Shown piece by piece: positions 6,764 through 50,870 of a stretch of DNA of 64,000 nucleotides; positions within the stretch are counted from its first letter, which is position 1, and each line of letters opens with the position of its first letter. The DNA is taken from assembly GCA_964036195.1 (NCBI GenBank), contig OZ038451.1, positions 13,768,529 to 13,832,528 of the forward strand. The letters are read 5' to 3'. Origin of the DNA: Sphaerolaimus hirsutus. Its lineage: Eukaryota > Nematoda > Chromadorea > Monhysterida > Sphaerolaimidae. Both the position numbers and the translations under genes were made by a program. Under the pieces are notes generated by a model, which was given only the letters and a program-made list of their open reading frames with translations, had not been told where the DNA came from and ran no database searches.

Positions 6764-9700
6764 TCACATGGCACACCCTTTCATCAGGGTCGCGTGAGCT
6801 GTCCAGAAATCCTGCGAAATATGGCAATTATTGACAAAAAGATGTCGTAATTTTCTACTCACTTTCTACTCATTTTCTACTCAGTTTTCTACTAATTTTC
6901 AGTAATCAAAGATTTCGACATTTTTCTTTTAAGACTCTCCCACCATGTAGAGCGACACGTTTCATACAGTTTAGAATTTTACAGGACATTGAAATCCGCG
7001 ACACTACAAGTACAAACCATTTACCCCAAACCCCGAAAACCATCGCACCTGTAGCATGGGGTTCTTCACATCCATGCCGTAGGCGAGCGTGATGAAGTCC
7101 AGCACCACCCTGTAGATGAACACGTACTGTTGTTCGTTCTGCACGCTGTGCAACCGCTGAGCGCGGATCTGCTTCACGCATTCGGCAACGTCCAGTTTGT
7201 TTTTGTCGCTGCGCTCCAACGCGCCTACCAGGGGGCACTCCCGGAGCCTGGAAAATGCCATGTAAAATGTGAAATGTCAAGCAAAGTGTCAAAAGTCATG
7301 TAAAATGACCGGTAAAATTGCAACCGAGTGGCCATTCTGCAAGGCATTTTACATAACTTTAGACACATTGTATGACATTTTCCATTCCACAGGACACTTT
7401 ACAGGCTCTGAAAGTGGCACCAGTAGGTCGACGGCGACAAAGGTGCCGGTGCGGCCGATGCCCGCCGAACAGTGCACCACGACCGGGTGCCCGTGCTTGG
7501 ACATCTTCGAGCGCAGCACCAGCATGCACTTCGAGTCGGGCGGCACGCCGCGGTCCGGCCAGTCCGCCCTGCGGTTTATGGCGCTCGATTCAATTTTGGA
7601 CGAACAAAAATTTAAGCAGTCCATGGGACTAGGGATGAAAAATAAACTGGACTTTTTTCAACGACGTGGTTTAAAAAAATTTAAACTTTGAAAAAAAACC
7701 CGGCCATCCATATATAGGACACTGTGGTACCTATCCGGATGTCCAATCCAATCCCAGACACTGTAAAATGCAAAACGTCATGCAAAGTGTCAAAAGTCAT
7801 GTGAAATCCCCATGTGAACGTTTTACATGACTATAGACATTTTGAATTTAACATTTGACATTTTACAGGGACCGGGAGTGCCTCATGACAACTGCCCGCA
7901 CACAACCTTTTTTCAAAATGTCAACAGACCAATGCGCGTGGTAGACCTGCCAGGGCTCGCGGTCGTAGCTGGCCGTCAACTTGATGCTCACCATGCGGCA
8001 GTGCGATTTCTCGCCCACTTTCTCGTGCCGCACGCCAGTGTTGCGCACCGTATACGGCCCGTATGTCACTGCGAGGGCACACGTGTGAGCACAAAGTAGA
8101 TAGTACTGACTGAGTCAATAGCGGCTGTAATTTTTGGCACAACTCCAATTTGGGAATTATCAAACGGCCCGTCAAAGTGGTAGTACAGTCTCAAGTTCGC
8201 GACAGTGATTACAGGGCGTTTGATCTTACTTACATTGTCAACATTTGAAACATTCCCTTTGAAAATGTGTCACTTCGTCTATCACTTGACAAATCAGTGC
8301 CAAAAGCAAATGGGCAACAACAAACACACAGGTCTGCCCCTTCTCGACGGGCCAATAGATCATGCACTTGTTCTTGTTCTTCTCCACCGGCTCGCACAGC
8401 ATCAGTATGAGCGGCGTGCGCGTCTGGTAGATCATGCGCCAGAAGTCCGCCGCTGCCGCCTCCGTCGGGCCCTGCGGACACTTGTCAGTGTAGAGAAGGG
8501 CAGCGCTGCTCAAAGTGTATTATGTATGACTGAGGCTCTCTGTGCATGTTTACCCGCTGTGCATGTAGACCCTAATTTTTACACAAAATCGCTCATTTTC
8601 ATACCATTTTATACATTTTCACCTTCAAAATCACTAGTTCATGTGTTTTATTGTCTATTTTCAGCTATTTCTTGTAGTATATGTGCTTATATACCCATTT
8701 TTAGTAATTTTTCACCTACTTTTAGCGATTTTTCTACCTTTTTTCCTCATTATGAAAAAGCCTATACAATGAACCCCCACGAACCCCCAAACCCCCTAAA
8801 TTTTTTTTTCTAGCTATCTATCCCTCCAGAGGAGCGAGTAGCCATCTATCCAACCCCCTGGAGGCTCAAAGTCTTGAATACTCCTGACATGCACAGCGGG
8901 TAAACATGCACAGAGGCACAGGCCCATTATGTATGTACACGCTGCGCGGCACTGAACGCAGCAGCAGCGGCTAAAAAGCCTTATGGACGCCACAACAACT
9001 TGGATCTTGTAGGAGTTGTTTCAAATGTAAACTATTGTAATCGCTTAGCAAAATGTGAAAACGAAATAGACGAAAACCAATGATACGCCACATACATACA
9101 TTACACACCGACAATGCATATGGGTTACCGAATACCGACAGTGCATATCAACGAAGACGCCAGGGAGCAGTCCCAGACCATGTAAAGTGTAAAAACCCTG
9201 GAAAGTGTAAAATCCCTGTAAATTGTCATGTGTCATGTAAAAGACCCTATAAAGTGTCGAACGTCACGTGAAAGACCCTGTAAAGTACCATGTGTTTTTA
9301 TGTCATGTGCCAAATCTCATCTTGTGTTATCGTATCCAACTCCTATGTTTTTGTATCCGATAAGATAATATGAGATTTGGATACCACAAAATATTATTCG
9401 GAAACACATGACACTTTACAGGGTTTTTACATGACACCTGACATTTTACACGGCCTTTTACACTTTACAGGGCACTGGCACATGAACAGCAGCCTGCCGA
9501 CCTGGGTGCAAATGAACTGGCGCGCCATCTTGGACCCGTCCACCCAGTTGGCGTGAATGTAGTCGCTGGTCTCGGCGCCGGGCGGCGGCTCGTTGTGCAG
9601 GTGCACCCTGGTTTCGTCGATGCACAGCACGTCCTGCGACGACGAGACAAGGTAGATCGTGGCCAGTTAGGCCGACTGCTGCTCAGCAACATTGACTATT

Positions 9701-11417: not shown

Positions 11418-12217
11418 ACCACTCTTTGACTATGGGCGCATTCTCTGCATTCGCCAACTTGGAGCCCCGGCCGCGCGCACTGAATTTCGACACAATGTTC
11501 AACTGGCGCGTTATTTTCGCACCGACCCATGCGACCGGCGACGAATCGTTCGCCTCGGAGGTGCGCGCGCTGCGCCGCTTCCTGCAACGAGGGCGTAGTG
11601 GTGCTGGGACGGGCAGGTGCCAATCACAGAGCCTTTAAAATGTCAAATGCCATGTAAAATGACCTGGAAAATGGCAAACGTTCGTTTGACGTTTTCCAGT
11701 TGATTCTACAGGACTTTTGACACTTTGCATGACATTTTACACGGTCTGGGACGGCCCCCTAGAAGCCTTCACCCGGTTCCACAACGTAAGAATTTCAGTG
11801 TACCGAAATGAGGAGTCCGTCGACTACTGCACTGTTTCAAACTGTGTCGATTACTTTCAAACAGAACCAAATGCGAAAATAACCCTAAATCAGTCCTGAA
11901 CACCTCGGATGTTCTCACCACCCATTTTTCTAATGTGTTCTGGCACTCTGCCAAACGTAATTTCTGGCTGCCATTCATTTAAGGTATGCCATTCTATCAA
12001 AAAAATACGGTGCTTAAAAACTTACATGCGTGGCGGGTTTACATGCGCAACGGACACCTCCACAGGCTGGGCGGACTGCCTGGGCGACGCGCACCCATCC
12101 GGCCGCTCGGCGGTGGCGGTCGCATGCGACGGCGGCAAGTCGCGCCGCCTAGAGCCCGGCAACGGCATGCGGCAGCGGTCGCGGCAGCGGGGGGTGGAAA
12201 TTCGACTGGATCAGTAG
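11418..12217 (+). CDS. 3' exons of an unrecognised gene
   Basis: Two coding-like segments with strong G/C third-position bias: 11418-11594 (contains FDTMFNWRVIFAP and SEVRALRRFLQRG; acceptor AAACAG, donor C|GTAGTG) and 12066-12217 (contains WADCLGDAHPSGRSAVAV, ending EIRLDQ and stop; acceptor CTCCACAG). They join in phase 1 to give RFLQRGRWADCLGD. An alternative small exon ends at AACCGTAAG-like donor sequence near 11785. I recognise no family. It lies between two minus-strand genes, and its 5' exons were not found. A wider reading frame on the opposite strand at 11399-11623 has poorer codon bias. Confidence 0.38.
11618..11762. mobile_element. Introner-family TIR element
   Basis: It begins TGCCAATCACAGAGCCTTTAAAATG and ends CATTTTACACGGTCTGGGACGGCCC, with internal TGACACTTTGCATGACA. 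Its flanks (CAGG and CTAG) only partly match the CTGG duplications of the exonic copies. It sits within the intron inferred for the unrecognised gene at 11418-12217. Confidence 0.6.
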
Positions 12218-42665: not shown

Positions 42666-43112
42666 GGGGACACTCCCAAACACTGAAATGTCATATGTCA
42701 TGCAAAGTGTCAAACGTTATGTAAAATGTAATGATAGAAGTCAAACGACCTGGTGGCAGTCCCAAGCCCTGTAAAGTGTAAAGTAGTGTCAAATGTAAAG
42801 TCAAATGCAAAGTAAAGTGTCAATTGTCATGCAAAGTTCAGTAATAAAATATTTTCTTTTTTGTTTTGATTGACACTTTACTTTGCATTTGACTTTACAT
42901 TTGACACTTTACACTGTACAGGGCTTGGGACTGCCACCTGGGGCAGTCCCGACCCCTGTCAAGTGAAAACTGTTGATCAAAACAAAAAGTTTATTACTGA
43001 ACCTTGCATGACAATTGACACCTTGCCTGACAGTTTGCATGACAAATTGACAAATTTGTGTGGCGTTTGACACTTGACTTCGTACTTTACTGGGCCTGGG
43101 ACTGGCACCTTA
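42666..43112. mobile_element. Cluster of introner-family TIR elements
   Basis: At least two adjacent copies. One runs from TGGCAGTCCCAAGCCCTGTAAAG (42752) to GTACAGGGCTTGGGACTGCCA (42937) between CCTGG duplications. The next starts GGCAGTCCCGACCCCTGTCAAG and ends near GGGCCTGGGACTGGCACC (43108). The first contains arms of GTCAAATGTAAAGTCAAATG. An older partial terminus (GGACACTCCCAAACACTG) is at 42668. They lie upstream of the CPEB start. Confidence 0.7.
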
Positions 43113-43545
43113 AAATGTACATTTTATATGGGTCTTTCTTCCTTACAGGGTTTGGGAGTAACACCGGATTGTAATGCTGAATTCATGCCGTCTGTTAATT
43201 TACGTGCACTTTGACCACTCGATTTTTACTTTCGCTGCTTTTTGCGTGCCTCCAGCGTATCCTGGACACATCTCGGCTTTCGTTGACATCCGGCCTCGAA
43301 CCGGAATTTCGCAAGAAAGCGAATATCTCGATGAGGTAAGAAATCGAGGAAACAGCTTGGATTGTTTATTGGCGTGCTGCCAAGCTACTAAAAGTAGCGC
43401 TGGCATTCTTCCAAATTCGTCGTAAGCATTCCGTTATGCCGAATGGAAAATTCAAACTGCGGGCAACCCTGAAATTAAAGGCAGATCGATGCTAAACTCA
43501 AAATTTGAAAAATAAAAGATAAAACGACGCGATTACGGAGACGGA

Positions 43546-46500: not shown

Positions 46501-49500
46501 CGTCAGACTATTGCAAGCAATAGTCTGACGTGAAATGTCAAGTTGTTCCCTGACACTGTGACGTGAAATGATGATGACGTGGAATGATAAAAATTGAATT
46601 TTTCAATTCGCTCTAGTTGTGGCTGATAACACTCAGTATTGGACACGATTAAGGTATTGATTCATATATTATCCTTAGAAAATTGTAGACCCGTAGCATG
46701 ATCCACACTTGTGTAATTAATTTCACGACATCATTTCACGTCATCATTTCACGTCGAATCGACGCTGAGCTCTAATTCCCGCTTTAAATATGCGCTAGTT
46801 TTCAATTCCATCAAAATATTTTTCAATTTGCACATCTTTCATTTATATTTTACATCGGGTTTTCTCCAGGCCTTTGCCCATTGGACGTGCGCGCACCCGT
46901 TACTCGCGCAAGGTTTTCGTCGGCGGCACACCCTGGGACGTTGTTGAGGGTTCGTACAAATTCCTGTTAATTTCGATTTTGATTTGATGTTGAAACGAAC
47001 TGGGAACTGTACCTGAATATCGATCACTTTCGCGTCTATCGATCAGGATCGACACTATAAGTTGGGAATTGTGGACAAATATTCAAAGACAAAACTTATC
47101 ACAGACAAAACTTCGATCACAGACTCGCTAATAGTGGCGTTCAGTCCGTTCGGCTCGGCGCACGTGGAATGGCCCAAGGACAGGCCGGGCGTGGCGCACC
47201 GCCGCGGCACCGGCGCCAGCACGGCCGGCGACGCCAAGACCGGCTACGTGTACGTGCTATTCGAGTTGGAGCAGGCGGTCGAGCGACTGGTGCACACGTG
47301 CAGCCCCGACCACAGCGGCAGGATGTGGCTAGATTTGGAGTTGACCAGGGAGAATGGCATCAGAAGTAGGAGGAATGTGAGTTGCGGAAATTGAACGGTA
47401 AAATTTTGAAAGTAATCGATAAACTAAGTTTTTAAAATGGTTATTCACGGTACTGTATGTTTAATTTAATTAATGGTAATCACTGCGTTAAATTCTGCAA
47501 CTTCAGTTATGATAGTCATTTGCGATCCCGAAAATGTTCTCTTCGCACACCAGATCAGTCATGTCTTTTTTTGGTTGATACACATCTATTATTCGTTTTC
47601 AAAGCCTTCGGCAGCACGACCTTCGGCCTTCAAAGCACGATCGGATCCTTTATGTAGAATATCGATGTCGGAAAAAATGTAAATATAACCGAATTGAAAG
47701 CCCTATCCTCTGAGCGAACCCTGGCATATTTATTCGACGTACCTAATTTCATTCTTTATGCTCATATTCACTTCTGCAGGTGGAGATAATCCCGTGGGTG
47801 CAAAACGACGCCCATTGGTGCGTAGCCGGACACGCTGTGAGTAACCGGACATTTTACAACCAAATCCAAGCCAAAACTAATCCTCACTCAATCTTTTCCA
47901 GGATTCCGTGTGCGGCGAGCCGGACAGCCGCAAGACGGTGTTCGTGGGCGGGCTGCACGGCCGCATCAGCGCCTACATGCTCGCCCACGCCATGGACCAA
48001 CTGTTCGGCTGCGTGGTGGCTTCTGTGATCGATCTGGATCGGCATAAGTATCCCATTGGTAATGTCCACGGGTATTTTGATGTTCAGAATATTTGGCTTC
48101 AGAATATAAGTTTGACATAAGATATGACATAAATTTTCCCAATGACAGCATATCCTATAATTGAGGATGGTCGATAATTTTCAAAAAGAAAATAAGATAT
48201 TGGATGCCGACACTCTGTATGTAGCGATGCACGACCTTGGCATTTCTATGTACTTACTGTATCTACTTGAATAATTCTCCTAGGATTTATTTTTTCATCA
48301 GACATTTTTAAGGGGGGAACTATTTAAGGGAGGAATTATTATTTCGTCAAGATTTTCAACTCAACTGAATTCACAAAATATGCTTTTTTGATACAATACT
48401 GTGTAATTTTGTGTAAATCGGGCACAACAAATTTATCAAATCATTCAAGGAGAGCTAAACCGCGAACCCCCAACGGAGGCCAAATACTAGCCACTAAAAA
48501 TAATGATATTCGACTCAAAATTGACCCTCCACAGGCTCGGGCCGCGTAATCTTCTCCAGCGAGCGCGCGCAGCGGGCGGCCATCGGCGCGCAGTTCGTCT
48601 ACGTGTCGGACCACGCGCTGCGCGACTTGGCCACGTTCAGCAAGACCATCCAGGTGGAGCAGTACCTGTCGCCGCAGTCGCCGTGCTCCGTGTGCCACAG
48701 CAACTCGCCCACGGTCGTGTTCTGCAGGCACCCCGGCTGCGCAGAGTACCTGTGCGACTCGCATTGGAGGGTTAGCTCCAGGGGTATCCATGATTTTGAC
48801 CCTCCGGGGGGTTGGGTAAATATAAACTCACTGCTTCGGAGGGATAACGGCTTAATATTTTTCGCTGAGGGAACTCGCGGGGGTCTTATTGGGGGTATAC
48901 AAGGCAGAAAGGGGAAAAATCGCCAAAAATGGGAAAAAGTATTCAAAATAGGTGTATAAACATCTGTACAGCCGAAAATAGCGATTTTGGTGGTGAAAAT
49001 TGGCAAAATTTTGCTATTTTATTATAAAAATTCGGGAAAAATAGCTTAGATTGTTTTTCCTTGCGCGTTCAATTTTCTGTGCCATCTCACTCAATTATCA
49101 CTATCGACCATTCATATACAGTTGACAATTAGGCAATTCAATATCATCCCCCCTTCCAGGAGCGTCACGCGTGCATGAGCGATGAGGAACGAGCTAGCCA
49201 TCGCAAGGTGCAGCGACGTTCGGCGCACGGCAACCGCCTGGCCGCCTCGTCGGGCGACTGGGCCGTGTGGCAGCACAACTCGGCGCCGCCCACCGCCAAC
49301 TTCCTGCCGCCCGCCGCGCGCTCCTTCGACCTGGTGCCAGTCCCGGACCCTGTAGAATGCCCTGAAAAATGACAAATGTCATGCAAAGTGTCAAAACTCA
49401 TGAAAAATGCCCGGTAAAATGGCAAACGTACGTTTGCCATTTTACCGGACATTTTCCATGAGTTTTGACATCTTGCATGACATTGACATTTTACACGGCG

Positions 49501-50870
49501 TTTTACAGGGTCCGGGACCGCCCGCTGGACGCTGAGCCGGCAGACGCGCGCGCGCGTCCGTCGCAGATGATAAAGCGCAATAGCTGCTGCCCAGAATTGG
49601 TAGGTTTTGTGTGGGTCTGTAGGATTTTGGTTGGCTCCAACTATTTATAACTGTAAATAGTTTGTGCGTCGCTCCGCTATTGTACGCTACTCTACGATTG
49701 CAGTTTTCTGGCGTTTATCTATTTAGAATGGTATTTACCTACCTACCGTATTTCCTCGAAATACCCCCAGGGGGTTTACTTTTTCAGAGTGGAAATTTTA
49801 AGGGAGTATTTCGAGGGGGGTTTATTATTTCGTCAGAAATTTTCGTGAATTTAGTAGTAAACAATACGTTGAAAAATGTCCTAAACCGGTAAACAATGTG
49901 ACGAAATAGGGTATATTTAGGCATATATTAACGTATATTATCTACTTACACTATGTATATGTGTAGCTGCGGTGCAAAGGGGGGGGGGGTATTTCGAGGA
50001 AATACGGTATTTGTGTATCAAAACAAAACGATGAAAATATATCTTTCGCCTGTCTTCGATGATTTACCAATGGGGTTTTTCCCTATCGATTCAACTCTGC
50101 ATACCCCCCCCCCCCCCCTAACAAGGCGCACTCGCCGGCGCCCTCGACGACCACGACAAACCTGCTCAACGAGCTGCTGTGCAGCGCGGCCAAGATGGCA
50201 GCGGCGGGCGTGGGGTGCGGTGGCCCGCTGCCGCCCAGCTGCCCGCCGCCGTCGCCAGCCGTCCCGCCGGTGGGTGGGACTTTTTTTTGTATTTTTCAGT
50301 ACTGTGACCAAAGGACGAAGCACGTACGGGGGGGGCTCCCTAGGCATGTAATCCCGTTGCGGGCGTCTCCAATGGGAGGGGCTGACACCCCTCAAATAGG
50401 TCGGCTATCTATCCTGGAGGCCCGCCCAGCTATCTATATATTTATCACTAGGCAAATTTAGGGGAGGGGGGCTTATACTCTGTCGGACCCGATTTGATTT
50501 CGATATACAGCAGTTTCTGTATTTTTCGTCGCATTCATTAATCGGGCTGTCGGGCCAATTACATTTCACGCCGCAAAACTACCGTATTACCTCAAATTAC
50601 CCCCCCCCCCTTGAATTAACCCCCTCCCCTCGAAATACCCCCACCGAAATGATGTACATTGCGTATGCAATGTACATGATGTATTTTTTACTGCTAATTT
50701 GCATTGCAGCTACGCATAGACTAGTTTGTGTATCTTCTCAGATGGGCCACGCGCCGCCGCCGTGCGACTGGGCGCTGCCGCCGCTGGCGCAGCGCTGCGG
50801 CCGGCCCCAGCAAATGACCAACACTGGCCGCGGTGGTTTCGGCCCAAACGCCCCCGTGTCATACTTTTAA
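43546..50870 (+). CDS. CPEB: CPEB RNA-binding translational regulator (complete, 16 coding segments)
   Basis: Segments: 43546-43630, 43827-43970, 44492-44709, 45018-45119, 45248-45353, 45609-45679, 45905-46116, 46870-46949, 47105-47376, 47780-47836, 47902-48058, 48535-48770, 49160-49333, 49528-49599, 50126-50269, 50742-50870; all in phase, 752 residues. CPEBs bind U-rich 3' UTR elements and control poly(A) length and translation. RRM1: RKVFVGGTPWDVV, FSPFGSAHVEWPK, KTGYVYVLFELEQAV. Linker: EIIPWVQND. RRM2: RKTVFVGGLHGRISAYMLA, LFGCVVASVIDLDRHKYPIG, SGRVIFSSERAQ. ZZ domain: CSVCHSNSPTVVFCRHPGC, then YLCDSHWRERHAC, with Zn-binding Cys and His. The N-terminal half is low-complexity, rich in Ser and Pro. 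Unusually, about 140 residues follow the ZZ domain. Segments 13 and 14 are separated only by a TIR element. The start codon is chosen as the first ATG of the phase-compatible first exon. Confidence 0.93.
46264..46779. repeat. 516-bp near-perfect palindrome in a CPEB intron
   Basis: Two arms of about 250-260 bp meet with almost no spacer at about 46516 (CTATTGCAAGCAATAG). Arms carry GACGTGAAATGATGACGTG repeats, CCACAACTAGAGCGAATTG and outer ends GGAATTAGAGCTCAGCGTCG. The arms differ by only a few bases and one short indel. It lies in the intron 46117-46869. Confidence 0.9.
49334..49527 (+). mobile_element. Introner-like TIR element splitting a CPEB exon
   Basis: Coding CGACCTGG is followed by TGCCAGTCCCGGACCCTGTAG, then the body (arms GCAAACGTACGTTTGCC and TGTCATGCAAAGTGTC), then TTTTACAGGGTCCGGGACCG CCCG, then CTGGACGCTGAG. 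CTGG is duplicated. Exact excision keeps the open frame through two further exons to a stop at 50870. Splicing at the internal CCT|GTAGAA and TTACAG|GG sites gives a stop within nine codons. Confidence 0.78.
49746..50012. mobile_element. ACCGTATTTCCTCGAAATAC-type MITE in CPEB intron
   Basis: Perfect inverted termini TACCGTATTTCCTCGAAATA and TATTTCGAGGAAATACGGTA, with adjacent G-tracts. It is one of at least four copies (3657, 10702, 60952); shorter relatives with ACCGTATTACC ends are at 44913-44999 and 50579-50650. Confidence 0.75.

Follow-up and report, generated by a model that had tools for sequence, protein, structure and literature searches.

The CPEB locus and the phosphatase copy

The window analysed here is a stretch of 64,000 nucleotides from the nematode Sphaerolaimus hirsutus (contig OZ038451.1, positions 13,768,529 to 13,832,528; C2:13768529-13832528 in the genome searched below), which contains genes for CPEB, a protein tyrosine phosphatase and STT3. 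A short foldback element interrupts the CPEB exon that encodes the end of the ZZ domain and the start of the tail, and this element, its relatives and their probable removal as introns are the subject of this work. The CPEB element is 191 bp long and bounded by CTG triplets, its arms share 89% identity across an alignment of 180 positions, and its DNA folds with z = -19.4, a stability that none of 200 shuffles equals; the position and the inverted arms given by the first-pass annotation are thereby confirmed (coordinates in Table 1). With 194 nt removed, FDL runs on into DAEPAD in frame, while the GT at 49352 and the AG at 49508, which lie within the inverted ends, lead to an early stop, both as that annotation claimed. 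It also described a 4-bp CTGG duplication. The target duplication itself stands, but the 4-bp length was dropped: the true target is CTG, and the copies in the genome carry a 3-bp CWG. The fourth G of "CTGG" is common to both sides because the element starts with G and the exon continues with G. In the CPEB introns (window 49740-50010 and 50580-50700), further CCCC/GGGG-rich repeats with a recurring TACCGTATTTCCTCGAAATACCCCC-like motif are found.

The CPEB element is not unique in the window: another full-length copy interrupts a phosphatase exon, and several diverged relatives are also present. The phosphatase element (7232-7420, minus strand) is the nearest relative of the CPEB element in the window and lies soon after the P-loop. 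The exons on its two sides, which are intact, match Pfam positions 140-195 and 198-233, and exact removal gives a single domain at 186.5 bits. Spliced alignment to a single homologue gave unreliable boundaries for the phosphatase and CPEB, and a profile built from 120 relatives was used to score candidate phosphatase transcripts. Exact excision ranks first among these, at 237.2 bits, in comparison with 216 GT-AG pairs, and the transcript that retains the element scores 184.2 bits. After exact removal the spacing from the P-loop to Q is 37, and it would be 40 with three more residues; it is measurable in 107 of the 120 relatives, and is 35-38 in 98 of these and 40 in none. The arms of this copy are 73% alike, and it differs by 16% from the majority sequence described below.

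The element family and the exons it interrupts

The genome searched comprises 348,482,957 bases in 762 contigs. Searching it yielded 4309 first-look candidates. Forty places were scored and 39 copies, including 38 outside the window, were fetched with their flanks; one scored place, on contig C108, was not fetched, and L007, which is the L004 place in reverse, was left out. Nearly all fetched copies have the ends CWG^GTGCCAGTCCC ... GGGACTGCCCC^CWG (^ marks a boundary of the element or intron). The exact left-end motif has 2182 matches in the genome, preceded by CAG in 1019 and by CTG in 810, together 1829 (84%), where chance for two triplets of 64 is about 3%; the same patterns read backwards have 0 matches in every count. 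Among the 38 non-window copies, CWG is found on the left in 37 and on the right in 37 (31 of these without the allowed shift of up to 2), and 28 have identical CAG or CTG on both sides. When all 39 copies are counted, and the right end may shift by up to 2, the left/right pairs are CAG/CAG in 17, CTG/CTG in 12, CTG/CAG in 6, CAG/CTG in 2, and CCG/CAG and CTG/CGG in 1 each.

The majority sequence of 40 copies has 192 bp and arms that are 98% alike across the first 90 positions, with unequal tips, GTGCC at one end versus the complement of TGCCCC at the other. Copies differ from it by about 2-16%, with a median of 0.047 for CTG/CTG copies (n = 13; 0.042 if the two copies of the window are set aside) and 0.037 for CAG/CAG copies (n = 17). 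Divergence is thus no lower in CTG copies than in CAG copies, and the sample gives no sign that CTG copies are being purged. Twenty 10-kb stretches of C1 and C3 contain six paired element ends (four in L041 and one each in L047 and L060), and these stretches together with the window contain 41 single ends, versus 4 in the reversed sequence. Rfam gives 0 matches at gathering scores, and an end motif was not found in viral contigs. L009/L022 and L006/L017 are pairs of very similar segments in which the element occupies matching sites, so that the duplication of the segments apparently followed the insertion; one member of these pairs has CCG as its left target.

Several conserved proteins require the exact removal of an element. 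The flanks of the 38 non-window copies were joined at the target and the resulting open reading frames (ORFs), 35 sense and 21 antisense, were compared with Pfam; the sense ORFs of L038, L009 and L017 were not scanned, the last two being near-duplicates of L022 and L006. Matches at or above the cut-off span the junction in six of the 35 sense ORFs, which belong to a flavin monooxygenase (L012), an RRM protein (L029), a kinase-like domain (L034), a glycosyltransferase 92 (L013), a FLYWCH protein (L028) and a glycosyl hydrolase 63 (L005). Comparison with solved structures adds RBBP5 (L037, E 1e-36, left/right pair CTG/CGG). Together with the window phosphatase there are eight sense loci, at unrelated sites in coding exons, whose junction is spanned by a domain or structure match, versus one antisense match, which is in the DNAJC2-like SANT domain of L038 (G000:C3:28944621-28946814; Myb/SANT). 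Matches below the cut-off were not counted (L022 PAN, L003 VWD, L008, L027, antisense L030, and L018, in which TPR repeats flank the junction), and neither was L021, where a PDZ match above the cut-off starts two residues past the junction. By codon score alone, the best ORF is sense in 29 of 39 copies and antisense in 10. ORF length across junctions is uninformative, since 114 of 195 control points, which were not matched for GC, also have at least 60 codons.

The junction is free of gaps in the alignments of RBBP5, RRM, ANP-receptor guanylyl cyclase, the monooxygenase, the DNAJC2 SANT domain and the window phosphatase; two of these alignments, for the cyclase and for the monooxygenase, contain a gap beyond the junction. 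After exact removal, E values are 3e-16 for the hnRNP-Q-like RRM (its best match is an unnamed RRM protein and the next is hnRNP Q), 8e-9 for the guanylyl cyclase and 1.8e-23 for the flavin monooxygenase. The RRM coding stretch has a second CTG/CTG element 93 bases on, and removal of both lengthens the gapless match (72.7 versus 61.5 bits; E 1.2e-19). The right triplet is CTG in the monooxygenase, both RRM elements, the cyclase, FLYWCH and the window phosphatase, and CAG in glycosyltransferase 92 and glycosyl hydrolase 63. In the last of these, the junction CTCTG^...CAG^GGAG restores a conserved W (66.9 versus 55.0 bits), and with CTG on its left and CAG on its right the predicted intron is canonical.

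Table 1. Features of the CPEB and phosphatase loci and diverged relatives of the element, in window positions
Feature	Position	Strand	Remarks
First CTG target copy	49331..49333	+	second copy 49525-49527
Predicted GT-TG intron in CPEB	49334..49527	+	foldback element 49334-49524 and second CTG target copy 49525-49527
CPEB exon 5' of element	49160..49333	+	last part of ZZ domain, first part of tail
CPEB tail exon 3' of element	49528..49599	+	exact-excision frame best of six, score slightly negative
Predicted CPEB tail exon	50126..50269	+	flanked by GT-AG introns
Predicted final CPEB exon, with stop codon	50742..50870	+	
Predicted 192-nt GT-TG intron in protein tyrosine phosphatase exon	7229..7420	-	right after HCSAGIGRTGTFVAVDLL; CTG target duplicated
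Phosphatase exon before element	7421..7568	-	WPD loop, P-loop
Phosphatase coding sequence after element	7048..7228	-	Q-loop
Diverged relative CAG^GTGCC...CCCCTAG^AAG	11617..11762	+	GT-AG intron if flanks are plus-strand coding
Diverged relative, CTG on both sides	42753..42940	+	second CTG 42938-42940

The relative at 11617 was considered as proof of a GT-AG case and dropped; its frame needs one base to be skipped and has no Pfam match. Next to it, at 11432-11616, there is a GC-rich plus-strand frame with coding-like codon use and an apparent frame change at about 11583, which may be an assembly indel or an unrecognised exon end. Diverged relatives are clustered at 42667-43164, one apparently inside another and one directly adjoining, and a further one (9164-9484) lies just within the 5' end of an ordinary phosphatase GT-AG intron. 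The elements at 42 kb, 9 kb, 7.7 kb and 53 kb of the window are too diverged for membership of this subfamily. As to the host, the window STT3B protein, assembled by eye, has a transcript at 78% identity as its nearest relative, and the pair is supported at 99/96. In a tree of 27 rows, midpoint-rooted and without Nematomorpha, the pair is sister to a ten-row clade of Plectus and other nematodes, and the 12 rows are together at 100/100; an early nematode branch is accordingly the most likely place of the host.

Probable removal of the elements as introns and its alternatives

The element family is very probably an introner, that is, a short, non-autonomous DNA transposon whose insertion into an exon gives rise to a spliceosomal intron. 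It has the terminal inverted repeats (TIRs) and target duplication of DNA-transposon introners, and the CWG target duplication of PHIS/NuwaI transposons. That the removal takes place in RNA, by the spliceosome, we infer from the sequence. The transposon is the 192-bp unit, with TIRs that span nearly its whole length and a 3-bp CWG target duplication; it starts with GT and has a C-rich end, CCCC, and the duplicated target would provide the acceptor. The intron would then consist of the element and the second target copy, with GT-AG ends at a CAG target and GT-TG ends at a CTG target. CAG and CTG are reverse complements, so a sense insertion gives CAG^GT...CCCCCAG^ or CTG^GT...CCCCCTG^ according to the strand read, and the same element would have AG and TG acceptors. 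Within the duplicated CTG(G), the GT-TG register is assumed by choice and not measured.

All 22 ordinary introns placed by homology or frame in the STT3, CPEB and phosphatase genes of the window are GT-AG. Two of the 14 STT3 introns are excluded from this number; they lie in a poorly conserved stretch and have uncertain ends (GC-AG with one homologue, GT-AG and GC-CC with the other). TG precedes the GT in nine of the 22 ordinary donors, and CTG^GT is therefore nothing unusual as a donor in this genome. If the elements were spliced via nearby ordinary GT-AG sites, the proteins would be altered by a few residues. This is highly improbable, even though such pairs exist at both window copies. The first-pass annotation held that the CPEB intron would never be GT-AG, wherever in the duplicated CTGG its boundary is put; this applies to exact excision alone, as GT 49334 and the exonic AG 49536 are in frame with the loss of DAE. 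In the phosphatase, the next-best pairs after exact excision are all in frame: GT 7397/AG 7209 (one more residue, 234.2 bits), GT 7402/AG 7214 (one more, 233.8 bits) and GT 7420/AG 7238 (with CPL added, 233.7 bits). The acceptors 49536, 7214 and 7238 score -2.0, -5.9 and -4.5, below the lowest of the 22 ordinary acceptors (0.4, leave-one-out), and acceptor 7209 scores 3.8, but its donor scores -1.8, below 21 of the 22 ordinary donors. GT-AG pairs near the ends were also compared, with one solved homologue each, and none reaches exact excision in RBBP5 (0 of 120), RRM (0 of 112) or the cyclase (0 of 105), where exact excision leads the best pair by 8.1, 11.2 and 11.9 bits. A GT-TG intron, with exact excision and no equal GT-AG option, is predicted at the RRM and the cyclase, and at the phosphatase with a 3-bit margin. 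The removal of a TIR element as a non-GT-AG intron, which was proposed for CPEB, is supported by copies in conserved exons elsewhere in the genome, where the canonical pairs tried are inferior, and is less secure at CPEB itself, where the tail is unconserved.

The acceptor could be chosen with the help of the RNA structure. The majority sequence folds with z = -24.9 into an 88-bp stem, and four bases per tip (GUGC and CCCC) are unpaired in the minimum-energy structure; the internal AG is fully paired in the isolated folds of the CPEB and phosphatase copies, and when these copies are folded with their flanks the tips are partly paired. The hairpin may hide the frame-shifting internal AG and bring the two tips together. 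In a quite possible model, the 3' boundary is set by the hairpin and its position rather than by an AG, the GU and C-rich tips are single-stranded at the base of the hairpin, and the spliceosome joins across the base at AG, TG or, in RBBP5, GG. Among the 15 copies with CTG or CGG on the right, the distance from the end of the nearest upstream AG to the junction is 19 nt in 12 and 9 nt in the other three, and both distances fall within the 28-nt limit given for TG-AG tandems in human genes in the part of that study used here (PMC2374985). If the model is true, each sense insertion is a natural paired test of AG versus TG acceptors, at hundreds of places in one animal genome.

Excision from somatic DNA instead of RNA, by a precise, transposase-type reaction of the germline-limited kind that leaves one target copy, is quite improbable. 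Such excision is blind to orientation, which suits the exact restoration whatever the acceptor dinucleotide and the antisense copy of L038, and precise repair is reported for mPing excision sites (PMC4561436, in part). However, the elements are present in the assembly, the insertions are not fresh, since copies have diverged from the majority sequence, and sense junctions prevail by 8 to 1. The unequal, intron-like ends, with a 5' GT and a C-rich 3' end, are unneeded for excision of DNA, and the mismatched targets lean to CTG/CAG (6 versus 2), as expected from selection for an AG acceptor, though not significantly (p = 0.29). Neither the orientation count nor the mismatch count is accepted as proof. 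It is extremely improbable that the interrupted genes are dead or allelic, with insertions in pseudogenes or recent ones on one assembled haplotype. Some sampled copies lie in the duplicated segments mentioned above, but the phosphatase copy, with arms 73% alike and a divergence of 16%, still has intact flanking exons, and in RBBP5, RRM and cyclase conserved domains persist to the left and right of elements that are 4-5% from the majority sequence.

Several observations weigh against the interpretation as introners with target-dependent acceptors. The scored and fetched copies were selected by likeness to the CPEB copy, and in 28 of the 35 sense-joined ORFs no Pfam match reaches the cut-off, which means that most copies are not placed in exons. 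Human TG acceptors are found only as alternatives near an AG, according to the part of the study consulted (PMC2374985). On the acceptor matrix of the window, the internal acceptors, which would shift the frame, outscore the terminal CTG, both in the phosphatase (TTTTCCAG, 6.0 versus 0.3) and in CPEB (TTTTACAG, 7.1 versus 4.2), and the phosphatase lead over the best canonical pair is 3 bits only. The comparison of GT-AG pairs covers RBBP5, the first RRM element, cyclase, L038 and phosphatase; in the monooxygenase, an exonic AG lies in frame 9 nt downstream. In RBBP5 (G000:C6:19794169-19796359) the right target is CGG and the exact intron would be GT-GG, not GT-TG. Exact removal at L038 would be GG-AG, which GT-AG splicing does not predict; there, none of 132 GT-AG pairs equals exact excision, and the best adds six residues and costs 6.2 bits.

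CPEB is itself a weak case, with its unconserved tail and the in-frame GT-AG escape. Homology of the tail was considered and dropped: alignments to the 106 listed proteins cover at most 71% of the query, to about the end of the ZZ domain, with the tail not aligned, and the tails of 12 homologues inspected vary in length and sequence. The coding nature of the tail is judged by frame and codon use. The three downstream exons score -0.10, -0.33 and -0.18 bits per codon, which is slightly negative. In comparison, three non-coding controls reach -0.53, -0.55 and -0.79 in their best frames, and the phosphatase scores +0.47. A CPEB protein that ends within the element, where read-through meets a stop at the 13th codon, with a downstream frame due to chance, would agree with these tails and scores. 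It is nevertheless unlikely, as the exact-excision frame has the best score of six in the next and last exons and the best of the three plus frames in the exon between, and the other copies of the family behave like introns. Exact removal as an intron is likely at CPEB too, supported by the frame, the codon scores and the behaviour of the family.

Relation to known introners

The origin of new introns and the strictness with which the spliceosome needs an AG at the 3' end are open questions. The present family appears to have inserted introns into conserved genes of an animal, and their acceptors are canonical in some and non-canonical in others, which would permit AG and TG acceptors to be compared within one genome with all else alike. 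Gene finders that require GT-AG would break such genes. In nematodes, Rushforth and Anderson reportedly found in 1996 that C. elegans can splice Tc1 from pre-mRNA.

The larvacean Fritillaria, which was named as the precedent, is a fair lead. Fritillaria borealis is an animal with many non-GT-AG introns, for which introner transposons with weak splice sites are discussed, but 95% of its introns depart from GT/AG and its U2AF is duplicated, according to the portion of the report considered (PMC13326754), whereas the 22 ordinary introns checked here are canonical, which does not fit non-canonical splicing of this general type. Closer matches are the Micromonas IE-B and IE-D elements and the Amoebophrya introners. 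IE-B and IE-D are introner elements with GT-TG splice sites, and thus also repeated GT-TG introns, but they belong to a green alga and have 25 and 6 members, and certain IE-B are 100 to 6,494 nt long, some with a long ORF (PMC3879977, sections consulted); the present family has elements of about 192 bp, at least hundreds of copies, a near-perfect foldback, and AG and TG acceptors that depend on the target. The introners of Amoebophrya, a dinoflagellate parasite, share hairpin inverted repeats, short direct repeats that overlap exon borders, and non-canonical ends. More than 60% of introns are non-canonical there, and no family-specific inverted-repeat motif is reported as detected in the part of the article drawn on (PMC7789003), whereas here one defined family is responsible and all 22 ordinary introns are GT-AG.

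DNA-transposon introners that carry one splice site and recruit the other are established (Gozashti et al. 2022, PMC9860276, in part), and these non-autonomous TIR elements with target duplications resemble the present ones; the variants in the part of that paper considered are rare GC and GA 5' sites, whereas here the recruited 3' site is TG at CTG targets. The word "nematode" has 0 occurrences in its main text. The NuwaI group of PHIS (PIF/Harbinger-related) transposons, mainly of animals, has the same 5'-CWG-3' target duplication, but most of its autonomous candidates encode a DDE transposase and a Myb/SANT protein, and they are not described as introns in the sections used (PMC4482050). 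A survey of nematode introns, in the portion considered, speaks of introners solely as occurring elsewhere (PMC9169325). Searches of the open literature, which leave most subscription papers and preprints uncovered, turned up neither an introner of nematodes nor a family whose acceptors are mixed AG/TG. Introners and GT-TG introners are already known, and it is the host and the mixed AG/TG outcome that look new here.

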